A DNA stretch of 39,506 bases from Candidatus Nomurabacteria bacterium RIFCSPHIGHO2_01_FULL_36_23 (GTDB lineage Bacteria > Patescibacteriota > Minisyncoccia > Phycocordibacterales > UBA9973): NCBI GenBank assembly GCA_001786745.1, contig MFTF01000012.1:1-39506 (forward strand), written 5' to 3'. The translations under genes were made by a program, and so were the position numbers. Each line of letters opens with the position of its first letter. Within the stretch, counting starts at the first letter, position 1. Below the pieces are notes generated by a model. That model was not told the origin of the DNA and made no database searches. It saw only the letters and a list, made by a program, of their open reading frames with translations. Shown here piece by piece: positions 3 through 32,776 of the stretch.

Positions 3-278
3 AGAGTTTCTTTAGATAAAATAAACGGAAGCCTTGCTTCCGTTTTGCCCTCAGATGTAAAGCTTTTTTCTGAAAGCCAGGGAAGGATTTTAGTTTCTGT
101 AACTCCCAAAAACATGGTTTCGTTTGAAAAAATAATAAAAAAAATTTCTTATGTTAAAATGGGAAAAGTGGGAAAGAACGGAAAAGTTGTAATTAAAGAT
201 GGAAAAAATAAAATAGTAGAAACAGATGTTAAAAAATTGTATAAAATTTATCATAGTTTTTCAGAAAAAATGAAATGA
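3..278 (+). CDS. purL: Phosphoribosylformylglycinamidine synthase subunit PurL, C-terminal end (truncated by window edge)
   Basis: Frame open from base 3 (RVSLDKINGSLASVLPSDVKLFSESQGRILVSVTPKN...), PurL C-terminal motif; followed by purQ. Confidence 0.8.
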   Translation, partial: RVSLDKINGSLASVLPSDVKLFSESQGRILVSVTPKNMVSFEKIIKKISYVKMGKVGKNGKVVIKDGKNKIVETDVKKLYKIYHSFSEKMK

Positions 279-1936
279 AATTAGAAACAAAAAACTGCCA
301 AAACTGCAAAAATAACTTTGTCATTGAGCCGGATGATTTTGGATTTTATGAAAAAATGGATGTGCCAGTTCCAGAAAAATGCCCACAGTGTCGTCAACAA
401 TTACGTATGCTTTTTAGAAATTTTAAAACTCTCTATAAAAGGCCCTCAGATAAAAGTAAGAAAATGATTATTTCGATGTATAGTCCAGAGACAAGACTTC
501 CAGTTTATGACAGTGAAGAATGGTGGGGAGATGAATGGGACCCAATGGATTATGGAAAGGGGTTTGATTTTAAAAAACCGTTTTTTGAGCAATGGAAAGA
601 ACTTTTCAATACTGTTCCTCATCCCGCTCTTATGAACACGCGGAGTATTAGTTGTGAATATTCAAACATGACTATTGATGCAAAAAATTGTTATCTCGTT
701 TTTGGTTGTGTGGAAGATGAGGATTGTGATTATGGACACATTGTATGGAATTGTCGAGATTCCATAGACAATTTATACCTATTTAAATGTGAATCTTGTT
801 ATGAATGTATTGATTGTCTGGGGTCTGCTAAACTTTTTTATGCGCAAGAATGCGAAAGTTGTGTAGATAGTGTAGGTCTTTTTGACTGCAGAAATTGTTT
901 AAATTGTATTGGTTGTGTCGGACAGATAAATAAATCTTATTGTATTTTTAATAAACCAGTTACCAAAGAAGAATACAAGGAGTTTTTATCAAATTACCCA
1001 TTGAATGAAAAATCAAGTATTGATTATATTTTGAAAGAGAGAGATGCTTTACGTAAAAAACATCCCCAGCGCTCTTTTTTTGGCTCTCACAATAATAATG
1101 TTTCTGGCAACCATATATATAATGCACATAATATACACCATTCTTTTGATATTAAAAATGGAGAAAATTCAAAATTTTGTTTTACTATACGAAAAACTAT
1201 TGATACACAGGATGCATCTTTTTCTACTGAACTTTCAGAATGTTATCAAGCCCTAACTATGTTAGACAGTAATAAAGTAATTGGGTCTCAACAAATAGTT
1301 GATTCACATAATATTTATTATTCCGAACTTTGTTATAGCTCAAATGAATTGTTTGGATGTTGTGGCTTACGTAAAAAATCTTATTGTATTTTAAATAAGC
1401 AATACACAAAAGAAAAGTATATGGAACTTAAAGAAAAAATTGTTAATTATATGAAAAAAACTGGCGAATGGGGAAACTTTTTTCCAAGTTTTCTAAGTCC
1501 ATTTTCTTATAATGAATCTATCGCTAATGAATATATGCCACTAAATAAAGAAGAAGCTTTAGATCAAGGTTTTTTATGGAAAGATAATATTCCAAGTACT
1601 AAGGGGCAAGGAACCATTAAATATGATAATTTACCAAACACTCCTGAAGAATATAGTAGAGAACTTTTAAAAGAAGTATTAACATGTAAAAATTGTAATA
1701 AAAATTATAAATTAATTAACAGAGAAATAAACTTTTATAAGAAAAATAAGTTATTGATACCATCCCAATGCTTTAATTGCAGACATGAAACTAGAATGAA
1801 TAAGAGGAACAGACGAAAACTCTGGGATGCAAATTGTGCTAAATGTAACACAGTTATAAAAACATCCTATAAACCTGAAGATCAGAAAATTTACAAAATT
1901 TACTGCGAAAAATGTTATCAACAAGAAATTTATTAG
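275..1936 (+). CDS. Cys-rich multi-zinc-ribbon protein of unknown function (paralog 1)
   Basis: CxxC pairs at N- and C-terminus, Cys-rich centre with two repeats (GCVGQINKSYCIFNKPVTKEEY / GCCGLRKKSYCILNKQYTKEKY); ATGA overlap with purL stop. Confidence 0.85.
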   Translation: MKLETKNCQNCKNNFVIEPDDFGFYEKMDVPVPEKCPQCRQQLRMLFRNFKTLYKRPSDKSKKMIISMYSPETRLPVYDSEEWWGDEWDPMDYGKGFDFKKPFFEQWKELFNTVPHPALMNTRSISCEYSNMTIDAKNCYLVFGCVEDEDCDYGHIVWNCRDSIDNLYLFKCESCYECIDCLGSAKLFYAQECESCVDSVGLFDCRNCLNCIGCVGQINKSYCIFNKPVTKEEYKEFLSNYPLNEKSSIDYILKERDALRKKHPQRSFFGSHNNNVSGNHIYNAHNIHHSFDIKNGENSKFCFTIRKTIDTQDASFSTELSECYQALTMLDSNKVIGSQQIVDSHNIYYSELCYSSNELFGCCGLRKKSYCILNKQYTKEKYMELKEKIVNYMKKTGEWGNFFPSFLSPFSYNESIANEYMPLNKEEALDQGFLWKDNIPSTKGQGTIKYDNLPNTPEEYSRELLKEVLTCKNCNKNYKLINREINFYKKNKLLIPSQCFNCRHETRMNKRNRRKLWDANCAKCNTVIKTSYKPEDQKIYKIYCEKCYQQEIY

Positions 1937-10368: not shown

Positions 10369-10380
10369 AAATTGCAAAAA

Positions 10381-11829
10381 ATGGAAACTAAAACATGTCA
10401 AAATTGCAAAAAAAATTTTATAATAGAATCTGAAGATTTTAATTTTTATGAAAAAATAAAAGTTCCTACACCTACTTTTTGCCCAGATTGTCGTGCACAA
10501 AGAAGATTCATTTGGCGTAACGAACGAAGTTTACATAAACGACCATGTAGTTATTGTAAAAAAGATTTTATTTCTATATATAATAATGGTGTCCCATTTC
10601 CTGTCTATTGTCATACTTGTTATTACAGTGATTCTTGGGATCCGCTTTCATATGGAAAACAATATAACCAATCAAAAACTTTTTTCTCCCAAATAAAAGA
10701 AGAAGGAGAAGGAATTGTAGATAGCCATTATTTGGTCTCTAGTCGAAATGTTACCAATTTAATTGGAAGCGTAAATCTTCGTTCATTAAGTAATTATTTT
10801 TTTGGTAGAAAACTTTCCCAGGAAGAATATAAAAGAGAAATAAATGAAATAGATTTTGGTTCAAGAAAAGTGCGTGATGAATTGTTGAAAAAATTTGAGG
10901 AGATAAAACAAAATTCTATAGTAAGAAGCACGAAACAAATCAATTGCGTTAATTGTGTGGGTGATCATTTAGAAAATGCAAAAGATTGTTATTATGTTTT
11001 TGATGGTTTTGACTTGGAAAAAGCGAGATATAGTTCTTGGGTTTTTGGAAGTAAAGACATTTCAGATTGCTTTGGTATGGGTAGTAGTGAACTTATCTAT
11101 GAAGCAATAAGTCCAGAGGAAGTTAATAATTGCAAATTTTTAATGGCTATCGATTCTTCTCACGATGTTGAATACGGACTATTTTGCCAATCATCGGGTT
11201 TTTTATTTGGATGTGTGGGCTTACGTTCAAAAGAATATTGTATTTTAAATAAAAAATATTCCAAAGAAGAATATAGTGAATTGGTTTCAAAAATAAAACA
11301 AGAAATGGAAAATAATCCATATGTTGATAAGCAAGGACTTTCTTATAGTTACGGGGAATTTTTTCCAAGTGAACTTTCTTCTTTTCTTTATAATGAAAGC
11401 ACTGCTCAAGAATATTATCCGTTAAATAAAAAAGGAGCTAAAAATATTGGTTTTGAATGGAGGGATGAAGAAATTCGTTCTTATAATATAACTATTGAAA
11501 ATGATAAAATTCCTGACAACATAAATGATGTTGATGATTCAATAATCGAAGAAGTAATAGCTTGCATGCATAAGCAAAACTGTATACATCAATGCACACA
11601 GGCTTTTAAAATAATTCCTAATGAATTACAATTCTATCACAAAATGCAAATACCATTACCAAACCTTTGCCCTAATTGTAGACATTTTGAACGTTTAGCT
11701 AGACGTAATCCAATGAAACTTTGGTTAAGAAATTGTGCTAAATGTAAAAAAGAAATTATGTCTTCATATTCCCCCGACCGACCGGAAATTGTTTACTGTG
11801 AAAAATGTTATCAGCAGGAAGTATATTGA
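10381..11829 (+). CDS. Cys-rich multi-zinc-ribbon protein of unknown function (paralog 2)
   Basis: METKTCQNCKKNF..., same N-terminal and C-terminal ribbons (YCEKCYQQEVY); ATG preferred over track TTG at 10372. Confidence 0.85.
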   Translation: METKTCQNCKKNFIIESEDFNFYEKIKVPTPTFCPDCRAQRRFIWRNERSLHKRPCSYCKKDFISIYNNGVPFPVYCHTCYYSDSWDPLSYGKQYNQSKTFFSQIKEEGEGIVDSHYLVSSRNVTNLIGSVNLRSLSNYFFGRKLSQEEYKREINEIDFGSRKVRDELLKKFEEIKQNSIVRSTKQINCVNCVGDHLENAKDCYYVFDGFDLEKARYSSWVFGSKDISDCFGMGSSELIYEAISPEEVNNCKFLMAIDSSHDVEYGLFCQSSGFLFGCVGLRSKEYCILNKKYSKEEYSELVSKIKQEMENNPYVDKQGLSYSYGEFFPSELSSFLYNESTAQEYYPLNKKGAKNIGFEWRDEEIRSYNITIENDKIPDNINDVDDSIIEEVIACMHKQNCIHQCTQAFKIIPNELQFYHKMQIPLPNLCPNCRHFERLARRNPMKLWLRNCAKCKKEIMSSYSPDRPEIVYCEKCYQQEVY

Positions 11830-14322: not shown

Positions 14323-15558
14323 ATGCGAGAATTTTTAAAAACAAGATATGCTTCTGGCGTTATTTTGCTCACAGCTCTAGTTTTTGTTTTGGGTATTTAT
14401 GTAGGATACAATCAGCGTCCCGAGATAGAAAAAGTTTTTAATCTTTCTGGAAAAGAAACTACAGTTATTACCCAAACTGATTTTTCTCCTTTTTGGAAAG
14501 TCTGGAATACTATTAATGAAAAATATCCCGATGCGAATGAAATAACTGACCAAAATAAAGTTTATGGAGCAATTTCGGGCCTTGTGGATTCATTAAATGA
14601 TCCTTATAGTGTATTTTTTAGTCCGGATGAAACAAAATTATTTGAAGACGAAATAGCTGGTAGTTTCGGTGGGATTGGCATGGAAGTTGATATAAAAGAT
14701 AAAGTGCTCACAGTTGTTGCTCCGCTTAAAAATACTCCCGCTTATCGGGCTGGCATAAAACCGGGAGATAAAATTTTAAAAATTGATAAAATTACCACCC
14801 CTGATTTAAGGATTGAAGAAGCGCTTAAATTAATAAGAGGGGAGAAGGGTACAATTGTCACACTCACTATTCTCCATGATGGAGAAAAAGAATCGAGAGA
14901 AATAAAAATTATTAGAGATATTATAAATGTCCCAACTCTGGATACGGAATTGCGTCCTGATGGAATTTTCGTAATAAAATTTTATAGTTTTTCGGCCAGC
15001 TCCAACTCTTTATTCCGTGATGCCTTAAAGAAATTTGCTCTGGCAAAAACTGACAAATTTCTACTTGATTTAAGGGGTAATCCGGGAGGATATTTAGATA
15101 TAGCTGTTGATATATCAAGCTGGTTTTTACCGGGAGGAAAAATTATTGTAACTGAAGATTATGGAAATAATAAAGAACCGGAGATATTTAGAAGCAAAGA
15201 TTATAATTTATTCAATGATAAATTAAAATTTATAATTTTAATAGACGGCGGGTCCGCTTCGGCATCGGAAATTGTCGCTGGCGCAATGCAGGATTATAAA
15301 CGAGCAATTATAGTGGGTGGCAAAAGCTACGGCAAGGGTTCTGTGCAAGAAGTTGTAAATGTGACTCCAGATACTATTTTAAAAATTACAGTCGCTAAGT
15401 GGTTTACGCCTAATGGAAATTTGATTACTGAAAAAGGATTGACCCCGGATTACATAGTAGAAAATAAAAAACCTGCCCGCAATGCTTTGCCTAGCGATGC
15501 AGGCGGGGATCCACAAATGGATAAAGCCGTAGAATTATTAAATAATTGGCCTCGTTAA
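14323..15558 (+). CDS. ctpA: Carboxyl-terminal processing protease (S41, PDZ domain)
   Basis: GGIGMEVD PDZ, LDLRGNPGGYL, DGGSASASEIVAGAMQD catalytic region, GKSYGKGSVQ. Confidence 0.92.
   Translation: MREFLKTRYASGVILLTALVFVLGIYVGYNQRPEIEKVFNLSGKETTVITQTDFSPFWKVWNTINEKYPDANEITDQNKVYGAISGLVDSLNDPYSVFFSPDETKLFEDEIAGSFGGIGMEVDIKDKVLTVVAPLKNTPAYRAGIKPGDKILKIDKITTPDLRIEEALKLIRGEKGTIVTLTILHDGEKESREIKIIRDIINVPTLDTELRPDGIFVIKFYSFSASSNSLFRDALKKFALAKTDKFLLDLRGNPGGYLDIAVDISSWFLPGGKIIVTEDYGNNKEPEIFRSKDYNLFNDKLKFIILIDGGSASASEIVAGAMQDYKRAIIVGGKSYGKGSVQEVVNVTPDTILKITVAKWFTPNGNLITEKGLTPDYIVENKKPARNALPSDAGGDPQMDKAVELLNNWPR
15472..15508 (+). repeat. 37-bp in-frame palindromic element, copy in ctpA
   Basis: CCTGCCCGCAATGCTTTGCCTAGCGATGCAGGCGGGG, encodes PARNALPSDAGG. 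Confidence 0.9.
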
Positions 15559-23947: not shown

Positions 23948-24328
23948 TCAATATACTTCCTGCTGATAACATTTTTCGCAATACACTGTCTCCGGTCTCT
24001 CTGGAGAATATGAGGTTTCAAATTCCACTTTACACTTCCCTGCTCCATGAAAATGATTTATTTTGCTTTGCCCGTCGTAGCTTTGCGAAGTCGGGTCGCA
24101 CATGCACTTTCGATGCCAAAGTTTAAATGGATTTCTTCGCGCAACTCTTGCCGTATGACGACAATAGAAACAACGTTTGGGAATTGGAATCTGCATTTTT
24201 CTGTAAAAAATCAATTCATTGGGAACGATTTTGTAATTTCTTTTACATTCAATACAGGCAAAAACTTCTTTCGGCTCAATGGTAAAGTCTTGCTTGCAAT
24301 TTTGACATATTTTCGTTTCGCTTCGCAT
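23948..24328 (-). CDS. Miniature zinc-ribbon protein (paralog 3, central Cys-rich region absent)
   Basis: MRSETKICQNCKQDFTIEPKEVFACIECKRNYKI...YCEKCYQQEVY: N-terminal ribbon start joined to C-terminal ribbons. Confidence 0.8.
   Translation of the reverse strand: MRSETKICQNCKQDFTIEPKEVFACIECKRNYKIVPNELIFYRKMQIPIPKRCFYCRHTARVARRNPFKLWHRKCMCDPTSQSYDGQSKINHFHGAGKCKVEFETSYSPERPETVYCEKCYQQEVY
24038..24103 (-). repeat. In-frame insertion with palindromic core inside the C-terminal zinc ribbon of paralog 3
   Basis: Encodes MCDPTSQSYDGQSKINHFHGAG absent from paralogs 1 and 2; core TGCGACCCGACTTCGCAAAGCTACGACGGGCA. Confidence 0.75.
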
Positions 24329-24377: not shown

Positions 24378-24974
24378 TTAAATACTATTTTCTTTTTTCA
24401 TTTCTTCCATCAAATTTTGGGCTACGATTTCGATCTCTTTACGAACTTTTCCATAATCGGGTAACTCTTCAATGGATTTTATACCCATATAAGACATTAA
24501 TTCAAAACTTGGTTTATAGATATAACGTCTGCTATCTTTGCTGTCGGTTTCTCTCTCTATCAATCCACGAACGGACAAAGCGCGCAGAGTAAAACTTGAA
24601 TTTACACCCCTGATATAATCAATCTCCGCTCTACTCACTCCGTTTTTATAAAGAACAATAGACAATGTTTCCAAGCTGGCTTTGGAAAGTTCTTTATTTA
24701 ATTCTTCTTTTTGCAAAGCTTCAAAAAGTTTAGAGAGTTCAGGCGGAGTTCCTAAAGTAATCTCCCCGCCTGCATCGCTATGCGAAGCATTGCGGGCAGG
24801 ATTGTTTTTCTCTAATAACACTATTCCTCTATTCTCTAAATTATTTTTTAAATTAAAAACAGCATCTTTTATTTCCTTTGTTGAAACTTTCAAAATATCT
24901 TCTAGTTTTTTAAAAGACACTGGCTCCCCTTTCCAAAATAGTATCGCCTCAATTTTTGACTCCAAATTAATCAT
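24378..24974 (-). CDS. scpB: Segregation and condensation protein B
   Basis: LESKIEAILFWKGEPVSFKKL, winged-helix ScpB layout; overlaps scpA. Confidence 0.88.
   Translation of the reverse strand: MINLESKIEAILFWKGEPVSFKKLEDILKVSTKEIKDAVFNLKNNLENRGIVLLEKNNPARNASHSDAGGEITLGTPPELSKLFEALQKEELNKELSKASLETLSIVLYKNGVSRAEIDYIRGVNSSFTLRALSVRGLIERETDSKDSRRYIYKPSFELMSYMGIKSIEELPDYGKVRKEIEIVAQNLMEEMKKENSI
24764..24800 (-). repeat. 37-bp in-frame palindromic element, copy in scpB
   Basis: Coding strand CCTGCCCGCAATGCTTCGCATAGCGATGCAGGCGGGG, encodes PARNASHSDAGG; 35/37 identical to ctpA copy. Confidence 0.92.
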
Positions 24975-32202: not shown

Positions 32203-32776
32203 ATTCTAAATTTACCATATCTCCTTTTTTTTTATATTTTAAATTCGTATGTTTCAGAGTGTACGGAATAATTTTCACAATAAAAGAATTATGTAAAACT
32301 TTAACGACTGTCAGACTAATCCCCTCTACCGCAACCGACCCTTTGTAAATTAAAAATTTCTTTAAATTTTTGGCCGGCCCGCCTGCAACGCTATGCGTAG
32401 CATTGCGGGCAGGTATTTTTATTTCAAACACTTGCGAATTTTCTTCCTTTTTTATACTAATAATTTTGCCTTTTCCGTCAATATGTCCAAGCACCATGTG
32501 ACCATTTAGTCTATCGTCGAAACGTATTGAACGTTCAATATTTACTGTATCATCTTTTTTCAAAAAATTTAAATTGGAAAGTTTGAGAGTTTCCGGCATA
32601 TATTCAAAAAAGATATTTTTACCTGTTTTATTTACCGTAGAACAAATACCGTTGATACTTATGCTTTCTCCTAATTTTATTTTTCCTAAATTATTTAAAA
32701 TTGTTAAAGAAATACCGCTTTTATGAGATGTTATGTTTTTTACTTTTGCAGTTTTAGAAATTATGCCTGTGAACAT
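32162..32776 (-). CDS. ribE: Riboflavin synthase alpha subunit
   Basis: MFTGIISKTAKV, SISINGICSTV, GHMVLGHIDG, KGSVAVEGISLTV. Confidence 0.93.
   Translation of the reverse strand: MFTGIISKTAKVKNITSHKSGISLTILNNLGKIKLGESISINGICSTVNKTGKNIFFEYMPETLKLSNLNFLKKDDTVNIERSIRFDDRLNGHMVLGHIDGKGKIISIKKEENSQVFEIKIPARNATHSVAGGPAKNLKKFLIYKGSVAVEGISLTVVKVLHNSFIVKIIPYTLKHTNLKYKKKGDMVNLEFDILAKYAYANKK
32377..32413 (-). repeat. 37-bp in-frame palindromic element, copy in ribE
   Basis: Coding strand CCTGCCCGCAATGCTACGCATAGCGTTGCAGGCGGGC, encodes PARNATHSVAGG. Confidence 0.92.

Follow-up and report, generated by a model that had tools for sequence, protein, structure and literature searches.

A 30-bp in-frame apparent copy of a dispersed palindrome in the zinc loop of a Nomurabacteria gene family, probably moved between paralogs

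In the 39,506-nt stretch of a Candidatus Nomurabacteria draft genome analysed here (the window), a small zinc-ribbon gene carries a 30-bp in-frame insertion inside the loop of its C-terminal zinc domain. Our preferred reading, to which we assign a probability of roughly 0.77, is that a small palindromic repeat dispersed in CPR genomes left a copy inside this gene family, landing once in the existing zinc loop and then being moved between paralogs. The features concerned are the following.

23948-24328, minus strand: ORF, paralog 3, a 126-aa zinc-ribbon protein containing KLWHRKCMCDPTSQSYDGQSKINHFHGAGKC
24032-24106, minus strand: loop C1-x-C2...H-x-H...C3 of the C-terminal zinc domain, CMCDPTSQSYDGQSKINHFHGAGKC, with ligands conserved in the family
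24066-24095, minus strand: 30-bp in-frame insertion, CCCGACTTCGCAAAGCTACGACGGGCAAAG, a copy of the dispersed class CCGNCTTCGCTAAAGCTNCGNCGG minus one T
24044-24106, minus strand: 63-nt tract identical (63/63 nt) to the paralog on contig C13 of the same genome (G000:C13)
275-1936, plus strand: paralog 1 (553 aa), a CAKC-type short form, reading KLWDANCAKC
10372-11829, plus strand: paralog 2 (485 aa), a CAKC-type short form, reading KLWLRNCAKC

The cysteine spacing is 2 residues in paralogs 1 and 2 and 23 residues in paralog 3, a difference of 21 aa or 63 nt; this arithmetic and the coordinates, as given in the earlier note, hold. The earlier note had concluded that a palindromic element of 63 bp split the CxxC pair of paralog 3, and that comparison within the window shows this insertion directly. 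Both in-window paralogs indeed lack the whole 63 bp, but the comparison misleads, as the short loop of paralogs 1 and 2 is the minority form in the family and paralog 3 is internally deleted. A CxC...H-x(1,2)-H...C loop lies between the two cysteines in 104 of the 124 C-terminal units collected across the genus, regardless of the element, and the short CxxC-type form (e.g. CAKC) in just 20, which may be somewhat under-sampled given that the query was the loop-bearing window protein. The family alignment likewise refutes a 63-bp insertion, unless each loop arose separately, and the empty site described below leaves the element just 30 bp within the existing loop. A palindrome-derived insert is real, but the loop already separates the cysteines, and the splitting of a CxxC pair by a 63-bp element is hardly credible.

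In comparison with its nearest relative (G029, 592 aa; L057:2212-3987), paralog 3 retains the first 19 and the last 107 residues, while about 460 internal residues are gone and the reading frame is intact. Paralog 3 thus appears to be an internal-deletion derivative of a ~590-aa family member, and would therefore serve as a poor internal control. Its neighbourhood (mraY, a carboxypeptidase-like gene, scpB and scpA) is common to the relative, with local rearrangement. A purQ-like gene comes after paralog 1, and one is likewise found beside the insert-carrying gene of G072.

Among the sampled genomes, the family is confined to the genus, with matches in 34 of 36 genus genomes (3-46 per genome) and in 0 of 24 genomes from the order's other genera. 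Among named records, Candidatus Nomurabacteria RIFCSPLOWO2_01_FULL_39_18 comes nearest. Its members are zinc-ribbon proteins of about 590 aa, occurring in many copies per genome and often in tandem clusters. Judged from the harvested units, most members clearly possess the loop. The earlier note had named a loop which is present in most members and ancestral as the outcome that would speak against it; the majority is largely borne out by the counts above, while the C-terminal tree, on which loop and short states change at least 12 times, is unrooted, and no ancestral state is claimed. CxC is conserved in 103 of the 104 loop-bearing members, and H-x(1,2)-H and the last cysteine, C3, in all 104. 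All of these putative zinc ligands are retained in the insert-bearing loop, and the extra Cys and His of paralog 3 stem from this old loop, not from the palindrome insert.

An AlphaFold2 model based on a 5-row alignment is weak in the loop, a possible second zinc site (pLDDT<50 for residues 80-97; pTM 0.38), and a fold search with this model of the window protein gave no usable match. A profile search of PDB sequences returned a weak LIM-domain likeness alone (best E 6e-4). The treble-clef zinc fingers zf_Tbcl_2 (PF23477) and TIGR04272 (CxxC-x17-CxxC) likewise comprise a C-terminal Cys-rich unit ending in CxxC and show a weak match to paralog 1, but the extra CxC...HxH loop sets the window family apart from them. 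The zf_Tbcl_2 score of 13.6 bits lies below the curated cut-off of 27; for TIGR04272, the 126-aa protein has no match and paralog 1 reaches 17.2 against a curated cut-off of 36.

The extent of the insertion is defined by an empty site. A relative in G026 reads TGTATGTGCGA followed directly by TAAGACAAATCATTTTCATGG, while the gene of G072 reads TGTATGTGCAA, then CCCGACTTCGCAAAGCTTCAACGGGCGCGG, then TAAGACAAATCATTTTCATGG, so that the filled site contains exactly 30 bp extra, in frame. The insert encodes PTSQSYDGQS, located between CxC and HxH, and no target-site duplication is evident at the insertion. Its 25-base core CCCGACTTCGCAAAGCTACGACGGG (24071-24095, minus strand) has one other exact copy in the genome, at G000:C13:8141-8165, in the same position of another family paralog. 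The genome search and family alignment proposed in the earlier note thus yielded a second copy and confirmed a real insert, although a smaller one with an existing loop as its target. The partial palindrome described for the core is present, but the insert folds no better than shuffled sequence (-6.1 kcal/mol, equalled by 21% of shuffles). What sets the insert beyond chance is its likeness to a dispersed class together with the exact empty site, rather than its palindromicity.

That likeness became apparent when one T was restored (TTCGCTAAAGC instead of TTCGCAAAGC), which uncovers the dispersed palindrome CCGNCTTCGCTAAAGCTNCGNCGG; a looser first pattern lacking the extra T had found mostly unrelated sites. 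Of 146 phylum genomes, 45 contain the class, with all reversed-pattern controls at zero. The window's genome has it at 4-5 other places, where several copies lie inside ORFs of 170-650 codons and encode, for example, PAFAKASAGK or, on the opposite strand, LPAEALAKAG. The insert has an edit distance of 5 to the 30-base consensus, about CCCGCCTTCGCTAAAGCTTCGGCGGGCAAG, a value that none of 5000 dinucleotide shuffles reached; against the class over 30 bp, the distance is 5-7 and again 0 of 5000 shuffles are as good. One class copy, CCGACTTCGCTAAAGCTACGACGG in G127, differs from the insert by one base.

A segment of this kind could in principle be an ordinary, divergent long natural loop such as CMCNGVESYNKEYKNTIKHSHG, with a merely coincidental repeat likeness, as 26 of the 124 units have natural loops of a length similar to that of paralog 3. 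We consider this very unlikely, since none of the shuffles matched the edit distance to the class, the insert has a GC content of 60% and the whole paralog 3 gene one of 39%, and genes with divergent flanks share the 25 bases without a difference.

The class consensus forms a hairpin of -12.9 kcal/mol, better than all but 2% of shuffles, whereas the insert does not fold better than shuffles and lacks intact palindromic arms. The insert is therefore a decayed copy of the CCGNCTTCGCTAAAGCTNCGNCGG class, with membership assigned by sequence and not by structure. In 80 genomes of the genus, the shortened core has 4 copies, all of them in this loop, and no direct donor copy was found. The exact core is not supported as a dispersed element in its own right, with its genus copies restricted to the loop, one weak match in 384 phylum genomes and one contig in a wider contig search. 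In one distant genome (L058), a deletion variant of the core lies where no gene was recognised; therefore, the one-base deletion may predate the insertion instead of having restored the frame.

The earlier note had also kept the core apart from the 37-bp class CTGCCCGCAATGCTTCGCATAGCGATGCAGGCGGG of the same genome, and rightly so: the G000 copy is no closer to it in edit distance than shuffled sequence, and its membership in that class was rejected. In this genome, both classes are dispersed and occur in frame within genes, but they differ in sequence. The 37-bp class (35-37 bp) has 10 copies in the genome at up to 3 mismatches, including 15473-15507, 24765-24799 and 32378-32412, of which the latter two are in-frame inserts of scpB and the riboflavin synthase gene, respectively.

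The insert is carried at the same site by four genes in three genomes, namely those on contigs C12 (window) and C13 of the present genome, a single gene in G029 and another in G072. When the loop is excluded from tree building, the four carriers fall into separate paralog groups. AU tests reject monophyly of all four carriers (p=6e-5), of full-length C13+G029+G072 (p=2e-41) and of C-terminal C12+C13 (p=8e-4); monophyly of C12+G029 is not rejected (p=0.23). Between C12 and C13, which are two contigs of one draft assembly with one of the genes near a contig end, the identity of the 63-nt tract is complete, as opposed to 96/201 (48%) to its left and 114/183 (62%) to its right. Where both genes encode the same residue, the codons agree in 20 of 20 cases in the loop versus 26 of 45 in the flanks (about 2e-5 if sites are independent). 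An identical tract between divergent flanks argues for one insertion followed by gene-conversion-like transfer.

Alternatively, a site-preferring element might have inserted repeatedly and independently at the same loop position, with no recombination between paralogs, and the second and third short repeats found in this loop (see below) make a receptive site plausible. However, all four copies share the one-base deletion, an A substitution and the junction, and the C12/C13 identity takes in 33 nt outside the element, which renders repeated insertion rather unlikely. In a scan of pairs among the 124 units, loops at least 86% identical were confined to the insert carriers, and family-wide shuffling of loop cassettes was not seen beyond these carriers at that threshold.

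In the preferred reading of a single landing with later transfer, the element would have inserted once, in frame, at the apex of the pre-existing zinc-binding loop, between CxC and HxH. The one-base deletion would yield a 30-bp copy that is in frame and free of the TAA read in one frame of the full repeat. The loop cassette would then have reached other paralogs by gene-conversion-like, short-patch recombination. The element may once have been mobile, perhaps by means of a Y1/RAYT-type transposase. The window's genome contains four matches to Y1-transposase (PF01797), and Y1_Tnp is present in 30 of 45 genomes with the repeat class versus 35 of 101 genomes without it (Fisher p=5e-4, kinship ignored). 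The ten added residues probably provide no new function and are simply tolerated as a flexible loop.

Other short repeats were observed in the same loop. A second one, GTTCGNCAGGCTCACCANNNGCGAC (peptide GSAGSPxAT), sits at the same position of the loop in nine or more genes of the family, and is also present in two msrA-like genes and one repeat-rich gene, while it is rare elsewhere (4 of 146 phylum genomes). Its status as a dispersed element is moderately supported, with a search pattern derived from the family. In the msrA-like genes L194 (G069:C2:43544) and L201 (G090:C7:102953), a GSTSSPQA-type repeat lies near a GG...PTYE loop. A third, CCCACGCCARGGCGGGGCAAG (peptide PRQGGA), follows HxH in G065 (L193, G065:C3:11415) and G026 (L112, G026:C29); in L193, it occurs together with a GSTGSPST insert. 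These repeats, though few in number, suggest that the zinc loop is a tolerant or preferred landing site. A broader proposal, that the loop is a hotspot which repeatedly captures unrelated dispersed palindromic repeats, passed between paralogs by short-patch recombination, is possible but in our view doubtful; if true, selfish repeats would be a source of loop variation in an expanded multigene family, with all zinc ligands retained.

Similar inserts were noted in other genes. In two species, an apparent DNA topoisomerase I zinc-finger region (CPEC...) is interrupted at the same place by a palindromic-repeat insert, CPECGLPVEASAKAGG in L184 (G000:C20:12748) and CPECAAPAVALALAGG in L188 (G018:C2:44827), another zinc-ribbon loop serving as a landing site. 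In two genomes, a uvrC-like gene (L131, G069:C5:162020; L140, G103:C10:7812) has a GC-rich palindrome-like insert (peptide GPPKRSEGGKK) within its N-terminal part, which is GIY-YIG-like.

Among known systems, Rickettsia palindromic elements (RPEs) of 100-150 bp occur in Rickettsia and Wolbachia, according to PMC3767692 (citing Ogata et al. 2000). As described there, RPEs are short palindromic repeats within pre-existing ORFs whose frame is preserved, a property that the comparison of empty and filled sites also reveals here. In contrast, the present element measures only 30 bp, is unrelated in sequence, belongs to CPR bacteria and has a copy common to paralogs. Bacterial REP elements of the GTAG/CGTC superfamilies are dispersed palindromes of 20-40 bp which are sometimes intragenic (PMC3733652). 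The class resembles them as a small dispersed palindrome in a genome encoding Y1/RAYT-type transposases, known here from presence alone, but its consensus lacks the terminal GTAG and its ends are CCCGCC... and ...GGCAAG. In the literature on CPR intragenic palindromes, of which subscription papers were partially covered, nothing specific was found. By analogy, the feature may be viewed as a Nomurabacteria counterpart of the intragenic palindromes of Rickettsia.

Palindromic repeats surviving in protein genes are best known from Rickettsia, while the present case comes from a CPR draft genome of about 0.56 Mb and combines an element of 30 bp with an exact empty site, a defined position in the protein and a copy that has apparently moved between paralogs. 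It may thereby offer a testable route by which small repeats turn into protein sequence, adding diversity to a large family of putative zinc-ribbon proteins.
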